Below are positions 5,093-22,986 of a stretch of 37,186 nucleotides of DNA, in pieces; the first letter of the stretch is position 1, and every line of letters begins with the position of its first letter. The notes beneath the pieces are model-generated. The model was not told where the DNA came from, did not search any database, and was given only the letters and a program-made list of their open reading frames with translations. This DNA is from Anaerolineae bacterium. Its GTDB lineage: Bacteria; Chloroflexota; Anaerolineae; UBA4142; SHND01. The stretch covers positions 1 to 37,186 of the forward strand of contig JADZCJ010000023.1 of assembly GCA_020851635.1 (NCBI GenBank). Direction: 5' to 3'. The translations under genes were made by a program, and so were the position numbers.

Positions 5093-6760
5093 TCAATCGC
5101 GCATCGGGAGGCGAATCCCGTTTCGTTCGGCAAACTCTATTGCCTGCTCGTAGCCGGCGTCGGCGTGACGGATAACGCCCGTGCCGGGGTCGCTGGTGAG
5201 GACGCGTTCGATGCGGCGGGCTGCTTCCGGCGTGCCATCGGCGACAATGACCTGTCCCGCATGTTGCGAGTAGCCAATCCCCACCCCCCCGCCGTGATGG
5301 ATGGACACCCACGTCGCGCCGTTGACGGCGTTGATCAACCCATTCAAAAACACCCAATCCGAAATGGCATCGCTGCCGTCTCGCATCGCTTCGGTCTCGC
5401 GACGCGGCGAAGCAACACTGCCCGCATCCAGATGGTCGCGCCCGATGACGATGGGCGCAGAGAGGATACCCTGCGCGACGAGTTCGTTGAATCGCAGCCC
5501 TGCACGGGCGCGCTCGCCATAGCCGAGCCAACAAATGCGCGCGGGGAGTCCCTGAAATGCGACGCGCTCTTGCGCCATGTGAATCCAGCGCGCGAGATGA
5601 TGGTTGTCGGGAAACAATTCCAGAATCGCGGCATCGGTCTTGAAAATATCCTGCGGGTCACCCGAAAGCGCAACCCAACGAAACGGTCCCTTACCCTCGC
5701 AAAACAACGGACGGATGTATGCCGGGACAAAACCGGGATAATCGAACGCGTTCGCAACACCCGCGTCCAAGGCGCGCTGTCGCAAGTTGTTGCCGTAATC
5801 AAACACGACCGAGCCGCGCGCTTGAAAATCGAGCATCGCTTGCACGTGCCGCGCCATCGCTTGCATCGAACGCGCCTGATACGCCTTCGGGTCGCCGGCG
5901 CGCAAGGTGTTTGCCTGTTCAAGCGGCATTTCGGGAACGTAGGAAAGCGGGTCGTGCGCGGGGGTTTGGTCGGTGACGATATCAGGGACGACGCCGCGCG
6001 CCACAAGCTCGGGCAACACGTCCGCCGCGTTGCCGACGAGCCCGATCGAGAGCGGCGCTTGGCGCGCGACATTCTCCTGCACCCAGGTCATTGCTTCTTC
6101 GAGGTTGTCGCTGACCACATCCACATAGCGCGTGTCCAGACGTTTTTGCGCGCGGGCGCGGTCCACTTCGACAATCAAACCTACACCGCCGTTCATGGTA
6201 ATGGCAAGCGGCTGCGCGCCGCCCATGCCGCCAAGACCCGCCGTGAGCACAAACTTGCCCTTGAGCGACGGAGCGCTGCCATCCGTGGTCGGAAAGTGTT
6301 TTTGCGCGAGCGCGCCAAACGTCTCGTAGGTCCCTTGCAAAATCCCCTGCGTGCCGATATAGATCCAACTGCCCGCCGTCATTTGCCCATACATGATCAG
6401 CCCCTCGCGCTCCCAGCGGTCAAAGTTCTCTTGCGTCGCCCAGTGCGGCACGATGTTGGTGTTGGCGATCAGCACGCGCGGCGCGTCGGGATGGGATTTG
6501 AAAATGCCGACGGGCTTGCCCGACTGGATGAGCAGGGTTTCATCGTTTTCGAGGGCGCGCAGGGCTTGAACGATGGCATCAAACGCTTCCCAACTGCGCG
6601 CGGCGCGTCCGCGCCCGCCATACACGATCAAATCTTGCGGACGCTCGGCAACGTCGGGGTCGAGATTGTTCATGAGCATGCGCAGGGCGGCTTCCTGAAG
6701 CCAGCCCTTGCATGAGATTTCAGCGCCGCGCGGGGCGCGGATGATACGTGGCTGGGACAT
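5093..6760 (-). CDS. hutU: Urocanate hydratase
   Basis: 555 residues, the normal length for HutU. The enzyme uses tightly bound NAD+ to convert urocanate to 4-imidazolone-5-propionate, the second step of histidine degradation, in the cytosol. The NAD-binding loop GGMGGAQP is at 177-184, and the conserved cysteine motif [15 protein letters not shown] places Cys at position 410, as I recall for the Pseudomonas enzyme. Conserved blocks [26 protein letters not shown] and the C-terminal [15 protein letters not shown] are intact. The start ATG lies 6 bases after the stop of the thioredoxin-like gene, so the two are cotranscribed. No hutH, hutI or hutG lies in the window. Confidence 0.96.
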
Positions 6761-6766
6761 GTTGCA

Positions 6767-7495
6767 TTAGACTCGCAGCAGGCGCTCGACCTGAGAGCGG
6801 AGTTGGGGTTCGGGGAGCGCGCCGACGAGACGGTCTATGATTTTGCCGTTCTTGACCAAGAGCAGAGTCGGTATGCTCTGGACGTTATATTGCATGGCAG
6901 TGCGTTGGTTTTCGTCCACGTTCAGTTTGGCGATGCGGACACGCCCGGAATATTCGCGCGCGAGTTTTTCCAATGACGGTGCGATGCGGTGACAGGGACC
7001 GCACCAGTCCGCCCAAAAGTCCACCATGACGGGCAGCGGCGCATTCAAGACGTCGCGCCCAAACGTCGCATCGGTGACAGGCAAAGGGGTATTTAACCCA
7101 CCTTTGCCCTGCTCCGCCTGCGCGGCGGGTCCGGCGGGTTCTGCGGCAGGGCGGGGCGGCGCAGCGGGTTGGGGTCCGCGACCGAGGAGATAGGCGGTGT
7201 GCGCGCGGACGATGTCGGGCACGGGCATTTCGGCGCGACTGTATTCTTTGCCGTCACGAAACGTAATGACCGAGCCGGCGCGCAGGTTCAAACGCCCGAC
7301 CAGCGCGGGGTTCTCTTCAAGGCGGATTTTGGCGACGAGCAATTTGCCGGACTCGTTCTTGGCAATCTGCTTCAAGACATCGTCGAGCGCGCTGTCGAGC
7401 GCGCCCGCGGAAAAAACCGCCAGGACGGGCAAACCGGCGCCGAGCACGCGGTCAAAGGATTGGTCGTTACTGTTGATGGGTGTATCAAAAGCCAT
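6767..7495 (-). CDS. Two-domain thioredoxin-like protein
   Basis: 242 residues made of two thioredoxin folds joined by a Pro/Ala-rich linker (about 107-135). The C-terminal domain (about 136-242) has the active site WCGPC (Cys165 and Cys168) and the cis-proline region SIPTLLLVKNG, so it should reduce or exchange disulfides. The N-terminal domain (about 5-105) keeps the fold pattern (VLAVFSAG, AKIRLEENPAL, ITFRDGKE) but has no CxxC. There is no signal peptide, so it is cytosolic. It lies directly upstream of hutU, which has a conserved cysteine. This layout recalls CnoX/YbbN-like chaperedoxins, but here the second fold is a thioredoxin rather than a TPR. Confidence 0.88.
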   Translation of the reverse strand: MAFDTPINSNDQSFDRVLGAGLPVLAVFSAGALDSALDDVLKQIAKNESGKLLVAKIRLEENPALVGRLNLRAGSVITFRDGKEYSRAEMPVPDIVRAHTAYLLGRGPQPAAPPRPAAEPAGPAAQAEQGKGGLNTPLPVTDATFGRDVLNAPLPVMVDFWADWCGPCHRIAPSLEKLAREYSGRVRIAKLNVDENQRTAMQYNVQSIPTLLLVKNGKIIDRLVGALPEPQLRSQVERLLRV

Positions 7496-10576: not shown

Positions 10577-10621
10577 ATTCGATTTTGGCGGAAACAAAAG
10601 CCGTTTCCGCCAAAATCGAAT
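10577..10621. repeat. Perfect 19-bp inverted repeat downstream of the propeller gene
   Basis: Arms 10577-10595 and 10603-10621 are exact reverse complements around a 7-base loop. No T-tract follows on either strand, so it is not a canonical terminator, though it could stabilise the mRNA 3' end or act as a transcription barrier before the trp promoter. Confidence 0.85.
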
Positions 10622-10683: not shown

Positions 10684-11059
10684 CGTCACAAAGACGCTGA
10701 CGCAGACGAGTACGCGTTTTACGGGTTTCAGAGAGTCCGTTGGAGTGGTGCGAGACGGACAATCACGAAGACGCCGAATGGACTGTCGAGTTTTGCGAAC
10801 GAAAGCTGCAGTAGAGTGTACTGCGCCTGTAATTCGCAACGGAAAACGCCCCCGTTACCGCGGCTGAGGACATTATCCATGTGGTGGATTCACCAAACAG
10901 GACGTGTCTGCTAGAGTGAGACTGGCTCCAATCCTTCCGTCGCACCGCGACGGAATTTTTTATTCTCGCGGTTTGGGGGTCAGACTCAACAGGGTGGTAC
11001 CACGGGAAACTTGCTTGATGCAACACTCTCGTCCCTATCGGGATGAGAGTGTTTTTTTT
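10684..11059 (+). promoter_or_regulatory. tRNA-Trp T-box leader
   Basis: The leader senses uncharged tRNA-Trp and antiterminates the trp operon. Stem I shows the AGTA motif (10709-10712), the distal AGAGAG...GGTG loops (10730-10750) and the specifier GAA-TGG-AC with UGG (Trp) at 10779-10781. A Stem III-like hairpin (10935-10955) is followed by six T. The T-box AGGGTGGTACCACG is at 10991-11004. AGGG pairs with CCCT (11033-11036) and ACGGGA (11002-11007) with TCTCGT (11027-11032), leaving the canonical 7-base bulge TGGTACC. This antiterminator uses the 5' arm of the terminator, so the two exclude each other. The bulge UGGU can bind G73-CCA of the tRNA-Trp encoded at 4758-4829. Confidence 0.95.
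11023..11059 (+). terminator. Conditional terminator of the trp T-box
   Basis: A 13-bp stem (11023-11035 with 11040-11052, one G-U pair) and a 4-base loop are followed by eight T. It forms when no uncharged tRNA-Trp stabilises the antiterminator. Confidence 0.93.
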
Positions 11060-11076
11060 ATTTTGGGGAGGTGACG

Positions 11077-12561
11077 ATGTTTCAGCCAACACGCGAGGAA
11101 TTTGCAAATTACGCGCAGCAGGGCAATTTGGTGCCCGTGTTTCGAGAGCTGCCCGCCGATCTGGAAACGCCGGTATCGGTCTATTTGAAACTGCGTGGTC
11201 AGAAGAATTCGTTCTTGCTCGAATCGGTCGAGGGCGGCGAACAGCTGGCGCGCTATTCGTTCATCGGCGTGAACCCGTCCCGCGTGATCACCCTGCCCGC
11301 GCATGACCCGACTCGTGCGCCCAACGAGGCGGGAGGCGACTCGCTCGACACGGTGCGCGAGGCACTGCGGAAATATCGCGCGGTCACCGTGCCCGGGCTG
11401 CCGCGCTTTACGGGCGGCGCGGTCGGCTTTCTCACCTATGACATTGTGAATCGGTTTGAACGCCTCCGCACACACCACAACGGGAATTACCAGCAATATC
11501 CGCTCCAAGACCTGGCGGACGGGATGTTTATGCTCGCCGATACGGTTGTGGCATTCGACCACGTCAAACACCGGATGCTGGTGATTGCCAACGCGTTTGT
11601 GAATGGAGATGCGACCAAGGCGTATGACGACGCGACGGCGCGAATCAACGGATTGATCGCGCGCTTGCGTCAGCCATTATATCCACCGACGCGCGGTTCG
11701 GTGGCGAACGGGTTCGAATTGAAATCGAACATGACGCGCGAGCGTTACTGCGACATGGTGCGCGCGGCGCAGGAACATATCGCGGCGGGAGATATTTTCC
11801 AGGTGGTGCTGTCCCAGCGTTTCGAGCGCGAGACGCACGCCGAAGCATTCGAAATCTATCGCGCGCTGCGGCGGTTGAATCCGTCGCCGTATATGTTTTT
11901 TCTCGATTTTGGCGAGACGCAGTTTGTCGGTTCTTCGCCCGAAATGCTGGTGCGGCTCGAAGACGGCGCAGCGCAGTTGAATCCGATTGCGGGCACACGG
12001 CGGCGCGGGGCGACGGAACGGGACGACGCGGAATTGGAGCGCGAACTGTGCGAGGACCCCAAGGAACGCGCCGAGCATGTGATGCTGGTTGACCTGGGGC
12101 GCAATGATCTGGGACGCGTGTGCGAATTTGGTTCGGTCAAGGTGCAGGACTATGCGGTTGTGGAACGCTATTCGCACGTCATGCATCTCGTCTCGCGCGT
12201 GGTCGGCGCGTTACGCAAAGAATATGACGCGTTCGACCTGGTGCGGGCGACGTTTCCCGCGGGGACGCTGTCGGGTGCGCCCAAGGTGCGGGCGATGGAA
12301 ATCATTGACGAACTGGAGCGCGCACAGCGCGGACCGTATGCGGGCGCGGTCGGCTATTTTGGGTTCCCCGGAACGGACCATTCGGGAAATATGGACCTGT
12401 GCATCACCATCCGCACGATTGTGATGCGTGACGGACACGCTTTTATCCAGGCGGGCGCGGGCATCGTGGCGGACTCGCAGCCCGAGCAGGAATACCAAGA
12501 GACCCTGAACAAGGCAACGGCGCTCGCCGAAGCAATTCGGATGGCGGAGGAGGAGCTATGA
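11077..12561 (+). CDS. trpE: Anthranilate synthase component I
   Basis: 494 residues. It converts chorismate to anthranilate with ammonia delivered by TrpG, the first committed step to tryptophan. The tryptophan feedback-binding motif LLES is at 47-50. The chorismate-binding domain shows conserved blocks such as PIAGTRRRG, LVDLGRNDLGRV, THE-like ATFPAGTLSGAPK, and GAVGYFGF. I chose ATG 11077 because GGGGAGG ends 5 bases before it; the GTG at 11071 overlaps that site. The stop overlaps the trpG start by four bases (ATGA), implying translational coupling. It is the first gene behind the T-box. Confidence 0.97.
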   Translation: MFQPTREEFANYAQQGNLVPVFRELPADLETPVSVYLKLRGQKNSFLLESVEGGEQLARYSFIGVNPSRVITLPAHDPTRAPNEAGGDSLDTVREALRKYRAVTVPGLPRFTGGAVGFLTYDIVNRFERLRTHHNGNYQQYPLQDLADGMFMLADTVVAFDHVKHRMLVIANAFVNGDATKAYDDATARINGLIARLRQPLYPPTRGSVANGFELKSNMTRERYCDMVRAAQEHIAAGDIFQVVLSQRFERETHAEAFEIYRALRRLNPSPYMFFLDFGETQFVGSSPEMLVRLEDGAAQLNPIAGTRRRGATERDDAELERELCEDPKERAEHVMLVDLGRNDLGRVCEFGSVKVQDYAVVERYSHVMHLVSRVVGALRKEYDAFDLVRATFPAGTLSGAPKVRAMEIIDELERAQRGPYAGAVGYFGFPGTDHSGNMDLCITIRTIVMRDGHAFIQAGAGIVADSQPEQEYQETLNKATALAEAIRMAEEEL

Positions 12562-13178
12562 TTCTGGTTATAGACAACTATGATTCGTTCACCTACAACC
12601 TCGTGCAATATCTGGGCGAGCTCGGCGCGACGCTGCAGGTGTTTCGCAACGATCAGGTGACGCTGGAGGAGGCGCGGGCGCTGAATCCTTCGCACATTGT
12701 CGTCTCGCCCGGTCCCGGCACACCCGAACAAGGCGGCGTATCGAACGAGGTGATTCGCGAAATGTACCGCGATACACCGATTCTGGGAGTGTGTTTGGGA
12801 CATCAATGCATGGGAAGCGTATTTGGCGGGGTCGTGACGCGCGCGCCGCGCTTGATGCACGGCAAAACGTCGCGCGTCTTTCATCGCGGGCAGGGCATTT
12901 TTCAAGGGCTGCCGAATCCGTTCGAGGCAGGACGGTATCATTCTTTGATCGTGCAGGAACCCCTGCCCGAATCCCTGGTCGTCACGGCGTTCACGGACCA
13001 GGGCGAAGTGATGGGGTTGCAGCACGCCACCGCGCCGATGTTTGGGGTGCAGTTTCATCCCGAATCAGTGCTGACACCCAACGGCAAACAGGTGCTCAAG
13101 AACTTTATGGAGGTTAGGCATGGGCGACTGGAAAACAGGCACACCGGTAAACACAGAGATTACGCGGCATCGAGTTGA
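12558..13178 (+). CDS. trpG: Anthranilate synthase component II (glutamine amidotransferase)
   Basis: 206 residues, class I glutamine amidotransferase that supplies ammonia to TrpE. The nucleophile Cys79 lies in LGVCLGHQCMG, and the His167/Glu169 pair lies in FHPES. The oxyanion loop SPGPGTPEQ is intact. It is coupled to trpE by a four-base overlap. The last 20 or so residues, past NFMEVR, are polar and basic and lie beyond the usual end of the family. No pabB lies nearby, so it may also serve p-aminobenzoate synthesis elsewhere; that is conjecture. Confidence 0.96.
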   Translation: MILVIDNYDSFTYNLVQYLGELGATLQVFRNDQVTLEEARALNPSHIVVSPGPGTPEQGGVSNEVIREMYRDTPILGVCLGHQCMGSVFGGVVTRAPRLMHGKTSRVFHRGQGIFQGLPNPFEAGRYHSLIVQEPLPESLVVTAFTDQGEVMGLQHATAPMFGVQFHPESVLTPNGKQVLKNFMEVRHGRLENRHTGKHRDYAASS

Positions 13179-13188
13179 AAGGAGAATT

Positions 13189-14208
13189 ATGATTCGCGAA
13201 GCAATTGCCAAACTGGTCGAAGGGGAAAACCTTTCGCAGCAAGAAGCCGAGACCGTGATGCATGAAATCATGGACGGACAAGCCACCCAGGCACAAATGT
13301 CGGCGTTTCTGGTTGCCCTGCGGCTCAAGGGCGAAACGATGCAAGAGATTGCGGGCTGCGCGCATGTGATGCGGGAAAAGGCGATCCGCGTGTCGCCCCA
13401 CCGCACCGACATTGTGGATACGGCAGGCACGGGCGGGGACAAGGCAGGGACGTTTAATATTTCCACCACCGCCGCGTTCGTGATTGCGGGCGCGGGGCTG
13501 GGGGTTGCAAAACACGGCAACCGCGCGATCTCGGGAAAATCGGGCAGCGCAGATGTGTTGGAGGCGCTGGGCGTCAATTTCGATCTTTCGCCCCAGCAAA
13601 GCGCCCGCTGTATTGATGAGGTGGGCATCGGTTTTCTCTTTGCGCCCAAACTGCACCCCGCGATGAAGAGCGTCGCGCCCGTGCGCAAAGAACTGGGCGT
13701 GCGAACGATCTTTAACATTCTCGGTCCGCTGACCAATCCCGCCTACGCGCCCGCGCAGATTGTCGGTGTCTTTGACGGACTCTATGCCAAACCGATGGCG
13801 CATGTGCTAAAATCGCTTGGCAGCAAAGCGGCGTTTGTTTTCTATAGCCAGGATGGGCTGGACGAACTGACGACCACTTCCGAAAATCACATCACGCATT
13901 TCACCAACGGTATTATTCATACCGAAACCATGGATGCGCGCGAATTGGGACTGGCGCGCGCGGACCGATCTGAGCTGCGCGGCGGAACGCCGGAGGAAAA
14001 CGCCCACATCACGCGTCAGGTCTTGAGCGGCGCAGAACGCGGGGCAAAGCGCGATGTGGTCCTGCTGAATGCGGCGGCCGCTTTGGTGGCGGGCGGCAGA
14101 GCAAACGACTTGTGCGCAGGGTTGGACGCGGCGCGCGAGTCTATTGATTCGGGACGCGCCATGCGCGCGATGAACGAGCTCGTCGCGCTGACATCCGGCT
14201 ATGCCTGA
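13189..14208 (+). CDS. trpD: Anthranilate phosphoribosyltransferase
   Basis: 339 residues, normal length. It joins anthranilate to PRPP to give phosphoribosyl-anthranilate. The PRPP-binding GTGGD (80-84), ISTTAAF, KHGNR (108-112) and SGKSGSADVLEALG are all present. The start at 13189 is set by AAGGAG ending 5 bases upstream and by the family N-terminus (MIREAIAKLV). It begins 10 bases after the trpG stop. Confidence 0.97.
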   Translation: MIREAIAKLVEGENLSQQEAETVMHEIMDGQATQAQMSAFLVALRLKGETMQEIAGCAHVMREKAIRVSPHRTDIVDTAGTGGDKAGTFNISTTAAFVIAGAGLGVAKHGNRAISGKSGSADVLEALGVNFDLSPQQSARCIDEVGIGFLFAPKLHPAMKSVAPVRKELGVRTIFNILGPLTNPAYAPAQIVGVFDGLYAKPMAHVLKSLGSKAAFVFYSQDGLDELTTTSENHITHFTNGIIHTETMDARELGLARADRSELRGGTPEENAHITRQVLSGAERGAKRDVVLLNAAAALVAGGRANDLCAGLDAARESIDSGRAMRAMNELVALTSGYA

Positions 14209-14215
14209 TAGCGCC

Positions 14216-15034
14216 ATGATTCTCGATGAGATTGTGCGCGTCAAGCGCGACGAAATAGAGAAACGCAAGACCCGCATTTCGCCTCAAGAATTTCGCAGGC
14301 GCGCGGAAAATTCACCGCCGGTGCGCGATTTTGCGGGCGCGCTGCGGTCCGGCGAGCAGGTCGCGCTGATCGCCGAAATCAAACTCGCCTCGCCGTCGCG
14401 CGGCGATATTCGCGCGGGCGCGGACCCGGTCCGGGTGGCGGGGATGTATGAGCGCGGCGGCGCGGCGGCGATTTCGGTGCTCACCGACCGACAGTTCTTC
14501 AAGGGCGATTTGAACAACCTCAAGGCGGCGCGCGTCGGCGCGGAGCTGCCGCTGCTCCGCAAGGACTTTATTATTGACGAGTATCAGGTTTATGAATCGC
14601 GCGCGCTGCAAGCGGACGCGGTCTTGTTGATCGCGCGGATTTTGGACGACGCACAACTGCGGGACTATCGCCTGCTGGCACAAGGGTTGGGGATGGCGGC
14701 GCTGGTCGAAATCCATGACGAACCGGAATTGGAACGCGCCCTCGGGTCGGGAGCATCACTCATCGGCATCAACAATCGCAACCTTGCCGATTTTACGCTG
14801 GACCTGGCGACGACCGGGCGGCTGGCGCCAAAAATCGCGCAAGCGGCGAACGGCACAGATATTGTCATTGTGAGCGAGAGCGGAATCTTGAATCGCGCCG
14901 ACGTGGAACGCGCCGCCAACGCGGGCGCCGACGCTGTCCTCGTCGGGGAGGCATTGATGCGCGCCGACGATGTGAGCGCGAGGGTGCGCGAGCTGGCGAG
15001 CGTGCCGCGCCTCCGGATTCCGGGGCAGCCGTGA
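14216..15034 (+). CDS. trpC: Indole-3-glycerol phosphate synthase
   Basis: 272 residues from ATG 14216; a start at 14201 would add five residues and overlap trpD. The family usually begins with an MILDEIV-like sequence, which favours 14216. It closes the indole ring from carboxyphenylaminodeoxyribulose phosphate in a TIM barrel. Key residues are seen in AEIKLASPSRG (Glu54, Lys56), LLRKDFIIDEYQ, GINNRNL and SESGI. It is a single-function protein, not a TrpC-TrpF fusion. Confidence 0.96.
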   Translation: MILDEIVRVKRDEIEKRKTRISPQEFRRRAENSPPVRDFAGALRSGEQVALIAEIKLASPSRGDIRAGADPVRVAGMYERGGAAAISVLTDRQFFKGDLNNLKAARVGAELPLLRKDFIIDEYQVYESRALQADAVLLIARILDDAQLRDYRLLAQGLGMAALVEIHDEPELERALGSGASLIGINNRNLADFTLDLATTGRLAPKIAQAANGTDIVIVSESGILNRADVERAANAGADAVLVGEALMRADDVSARVRELASVPRLRIPGQP

Positions 15035-15705
15035 GAGCGGGGTCACGCGTGACAATCGTCAAGATTTGCGGCATTACAAATCTCGCGGATGCGCGCGCGG
15101 CGGTGGAGGCAGGCGCGGACCTCCTCGGTTTTGTGTTTTTTCCGCCCAGCCCGCGTTATGTGACGCCCGAACAGACGCGCGCAGTGCTGGACGCGTTGGG
15201 CGAGTCGCGCAAAACGATTCGGGCGGTCGGCGTGTTTGTCAACGCGCCGCTTGAAGAGGTCAACAACATTCTGGAAGCGGCGGGGCTGGATCTGGCACAG
15301 CTGCACGGCAAAGAAACGCCCGAAATGGTGCGGGCGCTGGGTCCGCGCGCATACAAATCCATTCAGGCCCAAGACCTTGACACCGCCCATATGTTAATGG
15401 CACACTATCGCGAGGCAGTGAACGGAAATATGCCCGCGCTGATTGCCGACGCGCCGCCCGCCCAACTGCCCGGTGGGAACGGGATCGTGGCGGATTGGTC
15501 GGTCGCAAGAGCGGTGGCGAACGAGTTTCCGATTTTGCTGGCAGGGGGGTTGAACCCGGAGAATGTCCGGGAGGCGATTGCGCGCGTTGCGCCGTATGGC
15601 GTGGATGTTTCGAGCGGAGTGGAACGCGCGCCGGGAATCAAAGACCACGACAAGGTGCGCGAGTTTGTTGAACGAGTCAAATCTCGGGGATTAAAAAATG
15701 AGTAA
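15031..15705 (+). CDS. trpF: Phosphoribosylanthranilate isomerase
   Basis: 224 residues from GTG 15031, which overlaps the trpC stop. A second GTG at 15049 would give the commoner N-terminus [11 protein letters not shown] and is equally plausible. The enzyme performs the Amadori rearrangement of phosphoribosylanthranilate. The catalytic cysteine lies in KICGITN and the general acid aspartate in LIADAPPA. The phosphate-binding ends [10 protein letters not shown] and DVSSGVE are conserved. Its last eight bases overlap trpB. Confidence 0.95.
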
Positions 15706-16876
15706 AGGGCGCTTTGGGAAATTTGGCGGACAATTTGTGCCCGAGACGCTGATGCCCGCGCTGGCGGAATTGGAAGAGGCATTTGAAACGGCGCGGCACG
15801 ATGTGGCGTTTCAAAAAGAATATCAAACGCTCCTCAACAGTTTTGTCGGGCGACCCACGCCGCTTTATTTTGCAAAACGGCTAACGGAACTGTGCGGCGG
15901 AGCGAAAATCTATTTCAAGCGCGAAGATTTGGCGCACACGGGCGCGCACAAGATCAACAATGCCCTGGGACAGGGACTGCTCGCCAAACGCATGGGCAAA
16001 TCGCGCATCGTCGCCGAGACGGGCGCGGGGCAGCACGGCGTCGCCACCGCCGCCACCTGCGCAATGCTCGGACTGGAATGTATCGTCTATATGGGGACGG
16101 ACGACATTAAACGCCAGCAGCCGAATGTGTTTCGCATGAAACTTTTGGGCGCTCAAGTGTGCGAGGTCAACGCGGGGAGTCGGACGCTCAAAGATGCCAT
16201 CAACGAAGCGCTGCGCGATTGGGTCACCAATGTGCGGACGACGCATTATCTGCTCGGTTCCGCGCTCGGACCACATCCGTATCCGACGATGGTGCGCGAA
16301 TTTCAATGCGTGATCGGACGCGAAGCCAAAGCGCAATTGATGGATGCCGAGGGCAAACTGCCCGCCGCCCTCATCGCCTGTGTGGGCGGCGGAAGTAATT
16401 CGATCGGGCTGTTTGACGCGTTTCGCCATGACAAGCAGGTGGCAATGATCGGCGTCGAAGCGGGCGGCGCGGGAATCGAATCGGGCAAGCACGCGGCGCG
16501 TTTCGCCGACCGCAGCATCGGCGTCCTGCACGGCACCTACACCTATCTGCTGAACGATGCCGACGGACAGATTCGCGAGACACATTCCGTCAGCGCGGGG
16601 CTGGATTATGCCGCAGTCGGTCCCGAACACGCGGACTTGTTCGAGTCGGAACGCGCGGGCTATACCTTTGCGACGGACGCCGAGGCGCTGGACGCCTTTC
16701 AAAAGATTTCGCATTTGGAAGGCATCATCCCCGCGCTCGAATCCGCGCACGCGGTCGCAGAGGCGCTGAAACGCGCGCCCAGAATGAGCAAGGATGAGAT
16801 TGTGATTGTGAACTTGTCGGGACGCGGCGACAAGGATTTACAGACCGTGATGAGCGTCCTCGAGATGGGGGATTAA
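15698..16876 (+). CDS. trpB: Tryptophan synthase beta chain (TrpB1 type)
   Basis: 392 residues. It condenses indole with L-serine using PLP. The PLP lysine is Lys85 in [25 protein letters not shown] and the phosphate-binding loop GGGSNSIG are intact. Its length and N-terminus ([22 protein letters not shown]) are those of canonical TrpB1, the partner of TrpA. It overlaps trpF by eight bases. It is separated from trpA by an inserted B3/4-domain gene, which is unusual. A second, divergent beta chain is encoded at 21610. Confidence 0.97.
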
Positions 16877-16882
16877 TTTTGA

Positions 16883-17584
16883 ATGGAAACTCGCCTTGAA
16901 ATCTCTGCCACTGCCGAATGGCGGCAGGCGCATCCGGGGTCCGCGATTGGTCTGCTCGAAATGACGGGCGTTGACAACGGACAGCCCTCCGCCGCATTGA
17001 ATGCGCTCAAACCGAAATTGGAGGCGGAACTGCTCCAACGCTATAATGGTTTTGCGCGCAAGGATTTCCTGGCTCTGCCGGTCATGTCGGCATACGACCG
17101 ATACTATACCCGATTCAACAAGACCTATCACGTGCAGCTCCAGCTCGAGTCCATCGTGCTCAAAGGCAAACATCTGCCGGGGATTTCTCCGGCGGTGGAC
17201 GCCAGTTTTATGGCAGAGCTGGACACTCTGATTCTTACGGCGGGTCATGATGTCTCGCGATTGCGCGGACCGATCACGATTGACGTTTCGCGTCAGGGTG
17301 ATACCATGACGCAAATGAACGGGACGATCAAGGCGTTTTCCGCCGGTGACATGGTCATGCGTGACGCAAACGGCATCAGTTGTTCCATCATTTACGGGCA
17401 GGACAATCGTTCGCCCATCGCCCCGACGACAACGCACGTCCTCTATGTTGCGTATGCTCCCGGTGGAGCGCAGACGCAAGTGGTCGAATCACATCTGCAG
17501 CTGCTTGAAAAGTATCTATGCATCTTTTCGCCCGAGGCGACAACACGCCAGTTTCTTGTGCTTGCCGCACCCCCGACAGTTTGA
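16883..17584 (+). CDS. Free-standing B3/4 domain protein (PheRS-beta editing-domain family)
   Basis: 233 residues. The body matches the B3/B4 domain of phenylalanyl-tRNA synthetase beta (COG3382-like solo proteins): RKDFLALPVMSAYDRYYTRF, QLQLESIVLKGKHLPG, PAVDASFMAELDTLIL, then DVSRLRGPITIDV, TIKAFSAGDMVMRDANG and CSIIYGQDNR. In PheRS this domain hydrolyses mischarged Tyr-tRNA-Phe; solo versions are candidate trans-editing or amino-acid/tRNA-binding factors. It starts 6 bases after trpB and ends 36 bases before trpA, so it is cotranscribed under the Trp T-box. The family call is firm; the substrate is unknown. Confidence 0.88.
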   Translation: METRLEISATAEWRQAHPGSAIGLLEMTGVDNGQPSAALNALKPKLEAELLQRYNGFARKDFLALPVMSAYDRYYTRFNKTYHVQLQLESIVLKGKHLPGISPAVDASFMAELDTLILTAGHDVSRLRGPITIDVSRQGDTMTQMNGTIKAFSAGDMVMRDANGISCSIIYGQDNRSPIAPTTTHVLYVAYAPGGAQTQVVESHLQLLEKYLCIFSPEATTRQFLVLAAPPTV

Positions 17585-17620: not shown

Positions 17621-18436
17621 ATGAATCGCATTGACGAAACCTTCCAAGCATTACAGGGCAAGCGCGCGGCGCTGATGCCGTATTTGCCGTTGGGCTATCC
17701 GACGCTGCCGATTTCGCGGGAATTGATTCGCGCGGCGGAGGATGCGGGGGCGGATATTTTGGAATTGGGGGTGCCGTTCAGCGACCCCCTGGCGGATGGT
17801 CCGGTGATTCAACATGCCACGCAGGTTGCGCTCGAAAATGGCATGACCCTTCACAAGTGTATTGAAATGGTCCAGGACGCGCGAGCACACGGGGTCAGGA
17901 TTCCGCTCGTCCTGATGGGCTATTACAATCCGATCTTGCGCTATGACCTCAAGAAATTTGCGCGCGACGCGCTGGAAGGCGGGGTGGACGGGGTCATCGT
18001 GCCCGACCTGCCCATAGAAGAGGCGGACGATCTGCAAGACGCCGCCAGGGCGCACAACTTGAACGTGATTTTTCTCGCGGCGCCGACGAGCAGCCAAGAG
18101 CGGTTGAAAAAGATCGGCAGAGAAACACGCGGGTTTTTGTATCTGGTCTCGCTGACGGGGACAACGGGACAGCGAGATGCTCTGCCCCCCGGACTGGAAG
18201 AGTTTGTCCGTCGGGCGCGCGAGGCGACCAGCAAACCGGTGTGCGTGGGCTTTGGCATTGGCAGCACAGACAGCGCGCGGCGGGTCGCGCAGATTGCCGA
18301 TGGGGTGATTGTGGGCAGCGCGCTGGTCGCCAAAATTGGGGATGCGTCGAGCGCGGTCGAAAATGCGCGCCAATTCATCAGCGAATTGCGCGAGGCAACA
18401 GCAACGGCGCAGCTCAAAAACGCGCCGGACAGCTGA
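17621..18436 (+). CDS. trpA: Tryptophan synthase alpha chain
   Basis: 271 residues. It cleaves indole-3-glycerol phosphate to indole, which channels to TrpB. The catalytic residues Glu48 and Asp59 lie in ILELGVPFSDPLADGP, and GFGIGSTDSARRVA with VIVGSALV binds the phosphate. It begins at ATG 17621 with a weak ribosome site (GGA). It follows the B3/4 gene rather than trpB, so the usual tight trpB-trpA coupling is broken here. Confidence 0.97.
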   Translation: MNRIDETFQALQGKRAALMPYLPLGYPTLPISRELIRAAEDAGADILELGVPFSDPLADGPVIQHATQVALENGMTLHKCIEMVQDARAHGVRIPLVLMGYYNPILRYDLKKFARDALEGGVDGVIVPDLPIEEADDLQDAARAHNLNVIFLAAPTSSQERLKKIGRETRGFLYLVSLTGTTGQRDALPPGLEEFVRRAREATSKPVCVGFGIGSTDSARRVAQIADGVIVGSALVAKIGDASSAVENARQFISELREATATAQLKNAPDS

Positions 18437-18521: not shown

Positions 18522-20474
18522 GTGGCATCAGTCCTCAGACCCGGAACGCTTGTCGCCCGGTACAAGCTTGTCGAGCTCGCGGGTGACGGCTCGCAGTCCA
18601 ACATCTATCTCGCCGAACTCGAGCCGGAAATGCACTGGCTCATTCAAATCGAAAATCCCGAATGGGAACCGAACGTGCCCTTTGCCAACATTGACCGTTT
18701 TACGGCGCATGGGGGACAATGGATCGCCCTGCCGACGGTGGGCACGAGCATGGTGAATCTGGCAAGTTGGGTGGACCGGCTCGAACTGCCATTCATCGGC
18801 TGGCGCTGGGCAAATTTGGGGCGCGAAGTAGGGCTTTTGCACAAAAAGGGTGTTGTTTTGCAAAACACCCAACCGTTGGCGCTGGACCGTTTGGAATTTA
18901 CGCGCGGCGGCGAATTGAGCATCGTGCAGGGGCGCGGCGGGGCGCCGGACGAATATACCTTTCCTGCGCCTCAATCCGCCGATGCGGTCAATGCAGCCGC
19001 GGATGTGTATGCGCTGGGCGCATCCTTGCAAGCGTTGGCAGGTGACAATCTGCCGCGCAATGTGCAAGGCGTCATCCGACGCGCGACGGACCCCGACGCA
19101 AGCAAACGTTATCCCGACGGCAGCACGTTTGGCGAAGCGCTTGCCGAGGTCTTGCCCGATCCACAGCGCGAAAAGGTCGCGCCGCCCCGCCCCAAACACA
19201 GTGTGCTCAAACTGGTCGCCATTGCAAGCGTGGTGATATGTCTTGGACTGGCGCTGTGTGTGGGGGCGCTTTACACCTATGCGTGGCGAATGTTTCAGCT
19301 AGGCGCGCCGACGATAACCGCCATCCAACCCGAACGCCTGCGTGTGACGATCCTCAAATGGGAAATGCTGCAAGGGTGCAATGCGCGCGCCGAGGTGACC
19401 GTCCAAGACGAGGGGCAGCCAGTCACTCGGGATGACGGTTTGAGTTTTTTTGTTCTTGCGCCGCAGGCATCCGTAAACCAAATAGAGATCGCGCCCGGCG
19501 CAGAGCCCGCCGCGACGGCGCTTCAATTCGCGCTGGGCGATTTTTGCGTAGAGGGCGGCGCGCTTGCGATTGGGGCGCGCCGCGACGACCGCGAGGGCAC
19601 GAGCACGGTTTACTATTATCCGCCGGATGAGGATATCCCGGAAAAGGTGGCACTTTACAAGGCAGGCGGGACCCAGGCGCGGATTTACAAATTTTCCACC
19701 AGTCACATGAACTTTGGGCTTGCGTCGCGGGCAGGCGAACCCGCCAACCTCAAGGGCGCGATCAAAATTCGACTCTTGCAGGACGGGCTCCCGGTCCACG
19801 ATGCGCGTTTGAAAGCGGTCAACGGCGCGTTGGACCCACTGGTCGTCGTGCTGGTTATGGACACCAGCAAAAGCATGACCGGCGATGCTCTTGCAAAATC
19901 ACAGCTTGCAGCCGCCGGACTGGTTGCAAAACTCTATCCGAATGATTATGTCTGTGTGTATCGTTTTGCCACAGAGGTGTCGGAACCGCACGTCTGCTCG
20001 ACTGACAAGGAATCGGCGAGCAAAGCGATTGCGCAGCTGACGGCGGGTGGCAATACGTCGCTGTATGACGTGCTGGTCGAGGTGGGCAAACGCCACGCCA
20101 ACCGCGCCGACCGTCAAGCTATCATTCTCTTGTCCGATGGGGCGGACAACAACAGCAAGGCGACGCGTGAACAGGCATTGAATGACATTGCGAAAACGAA
20201 CGTGCCCGTGTATGCGATCGGTCTGGTGAATCAGGACCTTGCGCCTGCGGTCTTGGCGCAAATTGCAGAGCGCACGGGGGGCGATTATATGGAAGCGCCA
20301 ACTCCCGACGATCTGGAACGCTTGTTTGACAAGCTGCAGGCGCGATTCGATAACCAGTACGAGGTCGAGTTTCAATCCCTCTTTCCGGACCGCGAGCGCG
20401 GGACGTTGGAACTGTTTATTTCGGACGGGGAAGGCGAAATCAGCATCAAAAAGGAATACCAAGTCCAACCTTGA
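18522..20474 (+). CDS. Membrane protein with pseudokinase and von Willebrand A domains
   Basis: 650 residues from GTG 18522 (GGAG six bases upstream). Residues 12-215 follow a protein-kinase fold: ARYKLVELAGDGSQSNIYLAE opens it and AAADVYALGASLQAL matches the SDIYSLG helix. The VAIK lysine, HRD aspartate and DFG are all missing, so it cannot be a normal kinase. One transmembrane helix is at about 228-252. A vWA domain (about 438-620) has a MIDAS motif DTSKS (447-451) and LLSDGADN, so it should bind a metal and a protein ligand. It sits between trpA and trpS with no terminator on either side, and should be expressed with them. Its role there is unknown. Confidence 0.85.
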   Translation: MASVLRPGTLVARYKLVELAGDGSQSNIYLAELEPEMHWLIQIENPEWEPNVPFANIDRFTAHGGQWIALPTVGTSMVNLASWVDRLELPFIGWRWANLGREVGLLHKKGVVLQNTQPLALDRLEFTRGGELSIVQGRGGAPDEYTFPAPQSADAVNAAADVYALGASLQALAGDNLPRNVQGVIRRATDPDASKRYPDGSTFGEALAEVLPDPQREKVAPPRPKHSVLKLVAIASVVICLGLALCVGALYTYAWRMFQLGAPTITAIQPERLRVTILKWEMLQGCNARAEVTVQDEGQPVTRDDGLSFFVLAPQASVNQIEIAPGAEPAATALQFALGDFCVEGGALAIGARRDDREGTSTVYYYPPDEDIPEKVALYKAGGTQARIYKFSTSHMNFGLASRAGEPANLKGAIKIRLLQDGLPVHDARLKAVNGALDPLVVVLVMDTSKSMTGDALAKSQLAAAGLVAKLYPNDYVCVYRFATEVSEPHVCSTDKESASKAIAQLTAGGNTSLYDVLVEVGKRHANRADRQAIILLSDGADNNSKATREQALNDIAKTNVPVYAIGLVNQDLAPAVLAQIAERTGGDYMEAPTPDDLERLFDKLQARFDNQYEVEFQSLFPDRERGTLELFISDGEGEISIKKEYQVQP

Positions 20475-21526: not shown

Positions 21527-21609
21527 GGGTCCCAATAGCGGACCCGCCAAAACATCATCTCGCAGAATCGGCAATTCACATTCTGCATTTGTTCCCAAAG
21601 GAGGGAAAA

Positions 21610-22986
21610 ATGTCCGAGCAAGTCAAATATCTACTGCAAGAGAACGAAATGCCGACGGCGTGGTACAACATTTTGAACGATTTTGAAACGCCGCTGCCGC
21701 CCGTGATTCATCCCGGCACAGGACAGCCCATCGGACCCCAGGACCTGGCGCCACTCTTTCCGATGCAGTTGATCATGCAAGAAGTCGGCGTAGGTCCGTA
21801 TGCGACGAGTTTTGTAGATATTCCTGAAGAGGTGTGGGAAGCATACAAACTGTGGCGTCCGACACCGTTGATTCGGGCGCGGCGTCTGGAAAAAGCGCTG
21901 GACACACCCGCGCACATTTTCTTTAAATACGAGGGCGTCTCACCGTCGGGATCGCACAAACCCAATACCGCCGTGCCGCAGGCGTATTACAACAAGCAAG
22001 AAGGCACAAAACGTATCACGACAGAGACGGGCGCCGGGCAATGGGGCAGCGCGCTCTCGTTTGCCTGCCAACTGTATGATATCGAGTGCAAAGTGTATAT
22101 GGTGGCGATTTCTTTTCGCCAGAAACCATACCGTCGCTTTTTGATGGAGACCTATGGCAGCTCGGTCGTCTCTTCCCCCTCGATGGACACCAACACGGGT
22201 CGTAAATTCCTGGCGCAAGACCCCGACCATACCGGTTCGTTGGGGCTTGCCATCAGCGAAGCGGTCGAAGACGCGGCGGGTCGCGAGGACACGAAATATT
22301 CGCTCGGCTCGGTGCTGAATCATGTGCTGATGCATCAAACGATCATTGGCGAAGAAGCGCTCAAACAAATGGAAATGGCGGGCGAGTATCCCGATATCGT
22401 GGTGGGCTGCGCGGGCGGCGGCTCGAACTTTGCGGGCATTGCGCTGCCGTTTATACGCGCCAAAATGAAGGGCGAAAAGAACACACGCATCATCGCCGCC
22501 GAACCGACCGCCGCACCCTCGTTGACCAAAGGGGTTTATACCTACGATTTTGGCGACACCGGGCAAATCATTCCGCTGGTCAAGATGTATACGCTCGGCT
22601 CGTCCTTTATCCCTGCGCCCATTCACGCCGGCGGCTTGCGGTATCACGGCATGGCGCCCATCGTCTGCAAGTTGTATAACGAAGGTCTGATCGAGGCAGT
22701 CGCCGTCCCGCAAAACGCGGTGTTCGAGTCGAATGTTCTGTTTGCGCGCGAGGAAGGGATTCTGCCCGCGCCGGAACCGGGGCACGCGATCCGCGTGGTC
22801 ATCCAGGAGGCGCTGAAAGCCAAAGAAGCGGGCGAAAAGAAAACGATCCTCTTTAATCTGTGCGGACATGGACATTTCGACCTTGCCGGATACGAACAGT
22901 ATCTCAAGGGCGGTTTGGAAGATTACGAATACCCGCGCGAGCAGGTGGAAATGGCGATTTCGATGCTGCCCAAAGTGGCGATCTAG
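21610..22986 (+). CDS. TrpB2-type tryptophan synthase beta-like enzyme
   Basis: 458 residues, about 65 longer than TrpB1. The start is set by GGAGG 6-7 bases before ATG 21610. The long N-terminal extension, [12 protein letters not shown], the PLP lysine Lys117 in [23 protein letters not shown] and [12 protein letters not shown] are typical of the TrpB2 clade. TrpB2 enzymes make tryptophan from indole without TrpA; some archaeal TrpB2a enzymes use O-phosphoserine in place of serine. It could salvage indole or work with a different beta-donor. It follows trpS by 83 bases with no terminator and is followed after 8 bases by the alkyltransferase-like gene. Confidence 0.92.

Follow-up and report, generated by a model that had tools for sequence, protein, structure and literature searches.

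CtdA, a canavanyl-tRNA(Arg) deacylase whose substrate is established (PMC10018355; PDB 9f7e, 9mkl), is the only standalone B3/4 enzyme with a known substrate that we found in the literature. It lacks the editing-site His of PheRS and yet is active (PMC10018355), and its gene is an accessory one that spreads horizontally and is frequently plasmid-borne. The B3/4 domain is also the editing domain of PheRS beta, and a further B3/4 protein is encoded in an AraC-B3/4-LysE set on plasmid p5-HV1 of Roseomonas mucosa. As for trp operons, T-box control of trpE in Chloroflexi has already been published (PMC2494555). Here, we describe a B3/4 gene that lies within such an operon.

The window analysed is a stretch of 37,186 nucleotides from an Anaerolineae bacterium. 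As in the published T-box trp operons of Chloroflexota, a T-box with a Trp specifier lies upstream of trpE (10688..11039, plus strand); it scores 83.3 bits by cmscan (E 1.7e-18), which is below the Rfam gathering score of 93, but all T-box elements are nevertheless present. The specifier codon UGG (10779-10781) stands in the context GAA-UGG-AC, the bulge UGGU is at 10995-10998, and six related trp operons have T-boxes with the same specifier. This Trp-specifier leader places the window operon in a trp T-box regulon. Before the T-box, and 3' of the stop of the preceding gene, a near-perfect hairpin (TTCGATTTTGGCGGAAAC...GTTTCCGCCAAAATCGAA, window 10578-10620) is probably a terminator.

The operon runs on the plus strand through trpE (11071..12561), trpG (12558..13178), trpD (13189..14208), trpC (14201..15034), trpF (15031..15705), trpB (15698..16876) and trpA (17621..18436), all read from their ORFs and from synteny with relatives, in which trpE is 62-84% identical. 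Between trpB and trpA lies an intact ORF with an ATG start (16883..17584, plus strand) that encodes a B3/4 protein of 233 aa, 6 bp from the end of trpB (16876) and 36 bp from the start of trpA (17621), so that the order is trpEGDCFB-x-A, where x is the B3/4 gene. The initial annotation had described a solo B3/4 gene at this place, with these spacers and under a tRNA-Trp T-box, and the ORF coordinates and the T-box bear it out on each point. By its position, the B3/4 gene would be co-transcribed under the tRNA-Trp T-box. Contrary to the published Chloroflexota operons, the operon thus contains an extra B3/4 gene, which among the loci examined was found only here. Assembly chimerism is unlikely, as one contig holds both trpB and trpA flanking the B3/4 gene, in the ancestral order.

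A profile search, proposed earlier as a check of the domain, matched the protein to Pfam PF03483 B3_4 with 38.3 bits and an E-value of 1.3e-9, above the cut-off of 29.3; NCBIfam and PADLOC gave no match for it. The protein is free-standing, with a single domain and no synthetase domains, and the other B3_4 match in the genome is a separate frame of 862 aa, PheRS beta. We built a structure model from 39 family sequences (mean pLDDT 95.9) and found that its best structural match is CtdA (9f7e, Z 22.4, 219 of 231 residues), with PheRS beta next, through its B3/4 region (Z about 17); by these two matches the model has the B3/4 fold. Judged from profile and model, the window protein is a B3/4 protein of the standalone kind, and as such it is probably a trans-editing aminoacyl-tRNA deacylase.

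Is the window protein CtdA itself, a canavanyl-tRNA(Arg) deacylase misplaced in a trp operon? Both proteins are standalone and about 230 aa long, and the fold match to CtdA is the best and covers the full length. However, the two are only about 11-14% identical, and they differ at the residues of the CtdA-type pocket. This is seen in an alignment of the window protein, its relatives, PheRS beta, CtdA and further solo B3/4 proteins. VDxxN is kept by nearly all other proteins in this alignment, and most solo B3/4 proteins carry a Ser after it plus an RRWxWR loop, whereas VDxxF (or VExxF), a Glu replacing the Ser, an AGHD motif and YGxD mark the window protein and those related to it. In particular, where CtdA has VDxxNxxS and RRWNWRQ, the window protein and those closely related to it have VDxxFxxE and YGQD. 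'VDASFMAELD', initially read as the canonical B3/4 pattern, therefore departs from it, in that Phe stands where Asn is usual and Glu where Ser is, while the domain assignment itself stands. In the tree, the window protein branches apart from CtdA, in a single clade with its relatives that has 100/100 support and a long stem; the tree flags long branches where this clade joins the CtdA side. Finally, none of the ten related loci scanned has a guanidine riboswitch, nor any other Rfam element at the gathering score, so there is no riboswitch clue to the substrate in these loci. A misplaced CtdA is thus highly improbable.

The comparison with PheRS beta leads to a similar picture. PheRS beta shares the Pfam domain and the fold, but the window protein is not part of a synthetase and both editing-site residues, the His of HAFD and the Asn of VDxxN, are replaced. 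Clearance of Tyr-tRNA-Phe, one of the activities first envisaged, is therefore not suggested by the sequence. Because the editing residues are replaced, a substrate is not transferable from PheRS or from CtdA, and, with VDxxNxxS and HAFD / RRWxWR all changed, it is only from the fold that we infer deacylase chemistry. By its residues and its place in the tree, the protein belongs to an uncharacterised B3/4 subfamily (YHVQLQLES-type) that is distinct from CtdA; our literature search, in which the phrase 'B3/4' itself is not searchable, found no study of this subfamily.

Replacement of the editing-site residues known from PheRS could also mean that the protein has the B3/4 fold without hydrolysis and binds an amino acid or a charged tRNA, as a sensor or as an exporter helper, and some relatives do adjoin LysE/EamA exporters and AraC regulators. 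We consider this improbable: a set of polar residues is strongly conserved in the subfamily (E89, S90, E112, H122, D123, D156 and D174) and suggests a working active site, and CtdA is active although it too lacks the PheRS His (PMC10018355). Moreover, 22 positions are invariant across 39 sequences and all are kept in the window protein, so the gene looks functional.

What is the meaning of the trp position? The placement is tight, 6 bp after trpB with a Trp-specifier T-box upstream, and it would suit a Trp-specific quality control that removes a Trp analogue wrongly charged onto tRNA-Trp (or Phe or Tyr from related tRNAs), the T-box raising the protein exactly when charged tRNA-Trp is short. 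A survey of relatives for trp association had been set beforehand as the test to refute this link, and it found the gene scattered. Scanning a single genome for each species, we obtained 222 relatives and kept the best 80 of the 222 loci, with flanks of up to 6 kb: trp genes were near the relative in 0 of these 80. Likewise, no trp gene lies within 1.5 kb of any of about 35 further relatives from genomes of the class, and across the 151 loci surveyed altogether, with duplicates counted, trp genes occur at the window's own locus only. Orthologues with 59-64% identity occupy unrelated contexts, which argues that the function of the family needs no trp genes.

The same holds within the genus. In four genomes of the genus trpA was located (G001, G003, G004 and G005); all four have the same T-box and a complete trp operon, but their trpB-trpA junction holds no B3/4 gene. 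The only relative within the genus, in G001, is 38% identical and is located elsewhere. Within the set of genomes examined, this lineage alone thus carries the insertion, and the gene is not one of a recurrent class of trp-linked B3/4 genes. The Trp-specific reading is, on these grounds, unlikely. Of the role proposed in the initial annotation, tRNA quality control stands as the best inference given the full-length CtdA fold of the model, whereas the tie to a shortage of Trp or of aromatic amino acids is not supported. The trp position of the B3/4 gene looks incidental and probably has no special meaning, although the lineage that carries the insertion can still have adopted the gene for a trp-related use.

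Inspection of the trpB-trpA junction points in the same direction. When trpB and trpA lie side by side, the spacer is shorter than 160 bp in 26 of 29 trp loci; the long ones are those of the window (744 bp, with the B3/4 gene), of the sister species G004 (529 bp) and of L215 (392 bp). In G004, the junction holds an unrelated ORF of 177 aa without a Pfam match (L173:8825-9355), and hence insertions into the spacer are tolerated. A junction that takes up unrelated inserts in this genus is more easily seen as a landing spot than as the site of a functional partnership.

Like CtdA, the window subfamily is a horizontally spread accessory gene. Its distribution is patchy: relatives are present in 5 of 20 genomes of the order and in 47 of 396 of the class, weak matches counted, and in the one-genome-per-species scan the matches span Chloroflexota, Proteobacteria, Desulfobacula, Spirochaetes and a cyanobacterium. 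One plasmid, from Deinococcus, carries a relative; phage records yielded none. The base composition of the B3/4 gene (GC 0.56, GC3 0.63) lies toward the lower end of that of its neighbours (GC 0.55-0.64, GC3 0.67-0.76), a lower GC that weakly supports transfer, and no direct repeats were found flanking the gene. We favour, as fairly probable, the reading that an accessory trans-editing B3/4 enzyme of a horizontally spread, non-CtdA subfamily was inserted between trpB and trpA in one lineage and would be expressed there by read-through. The free-standing B3/4-fold enzyme would hydrolyse a wrongly charged aminoacyl-tRNA, most likely one with a non-protein or misplaced amino acid. Transcription would now come from read-through of the trp T-box operon, which may merely set the expression of the gene in this lineage.

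Most neighbours of the relatives are unrelated to one another. Only a LysE-type exporter recurs as a functional neighbour: it lies directly downstream on the same strand in 6 of the best 80 of 222 loci (L110, L118, L119, L125, L134 and L146), and in three of these six an AraC regulator lies upstream as well. On the Deinococcus plasmid, AraC, an EamA exporter and B3/4 stand in a row. On the Roseomonas mucosa plasmid p5-HV1 the order is AraC, B3/4, LysE; there, the exporter and the regulator are homologous to those of L110, L118 and L119, and the B3/4 protein is of the same family as the window protein but of another subfamily. Sets of AraC, a standalone B3/4 and LysE (or EamA) are found at L110:5045-7313, L118:5118-7315, L119 around 6001-7308, L181:1842-4037 and L014:4229-6687. 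Two different B3/4 subfamilies take part in this recurrent set, which occurs in Chloroflexota, a cyanobacterium, Roseomonas and Deinococcus. Export combined with editing points to defence against a harmful amino acid, and the set resembles an edit-and-export system that would protect against a toxic one. The window gene differs from the p5-HV1 set in its place between trpB and trpA, with neither an exporter nor an AraC gene beside it; a search of its own genome for the LysE exporter of the cassette gave no match, a result of little weight given the diversity of this exporter family.

Because this uncharacterised B3/4 subfamily is distinct and widespread and recurs beside amino-acid exporters, it offers a lead to a new tRNA-editing substrate. 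A bolder proposal is that the subfamily is a new tRNA-editing class with its own pocket, acting with LysE-type exporters against a toxic analogue charged onto tRNA-Trp, hence the tRNA-Trp control at this locus. The putative pocket would comprise Phe109, Glu112 and His122-Asp123, replacing the Asn, the Ser and the loop of CtdA. We regard this proposal as quite unlikely; if true, it would concern a toxic amino-acid analogue not yet tied to any editing factor.

Another relative is found in a different biosynthesis setting: at L057:3448-8128 (G303), it follows a LeuA/citramalate-synthase-like gene at a distance of 8 bp and precedes a gene for isopropylmalate dehydrogenase, which puts it inside a branched-chain amino-acid gene set. 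Downstream of the window operon, a VWA-domain protein of 650 aa (window 18522-20474) is encoded between trpA and trpS; its N-terminus is kinase-like by eye, without a kinase Pfam match. A VWA gene between trpA and trpS is also present in two same-genus species (L063 and L065) and seemingly absent in a third (L064). After trpS, the window carries trpB2, a second, PALP-type trpB-like gene (21589-22986).
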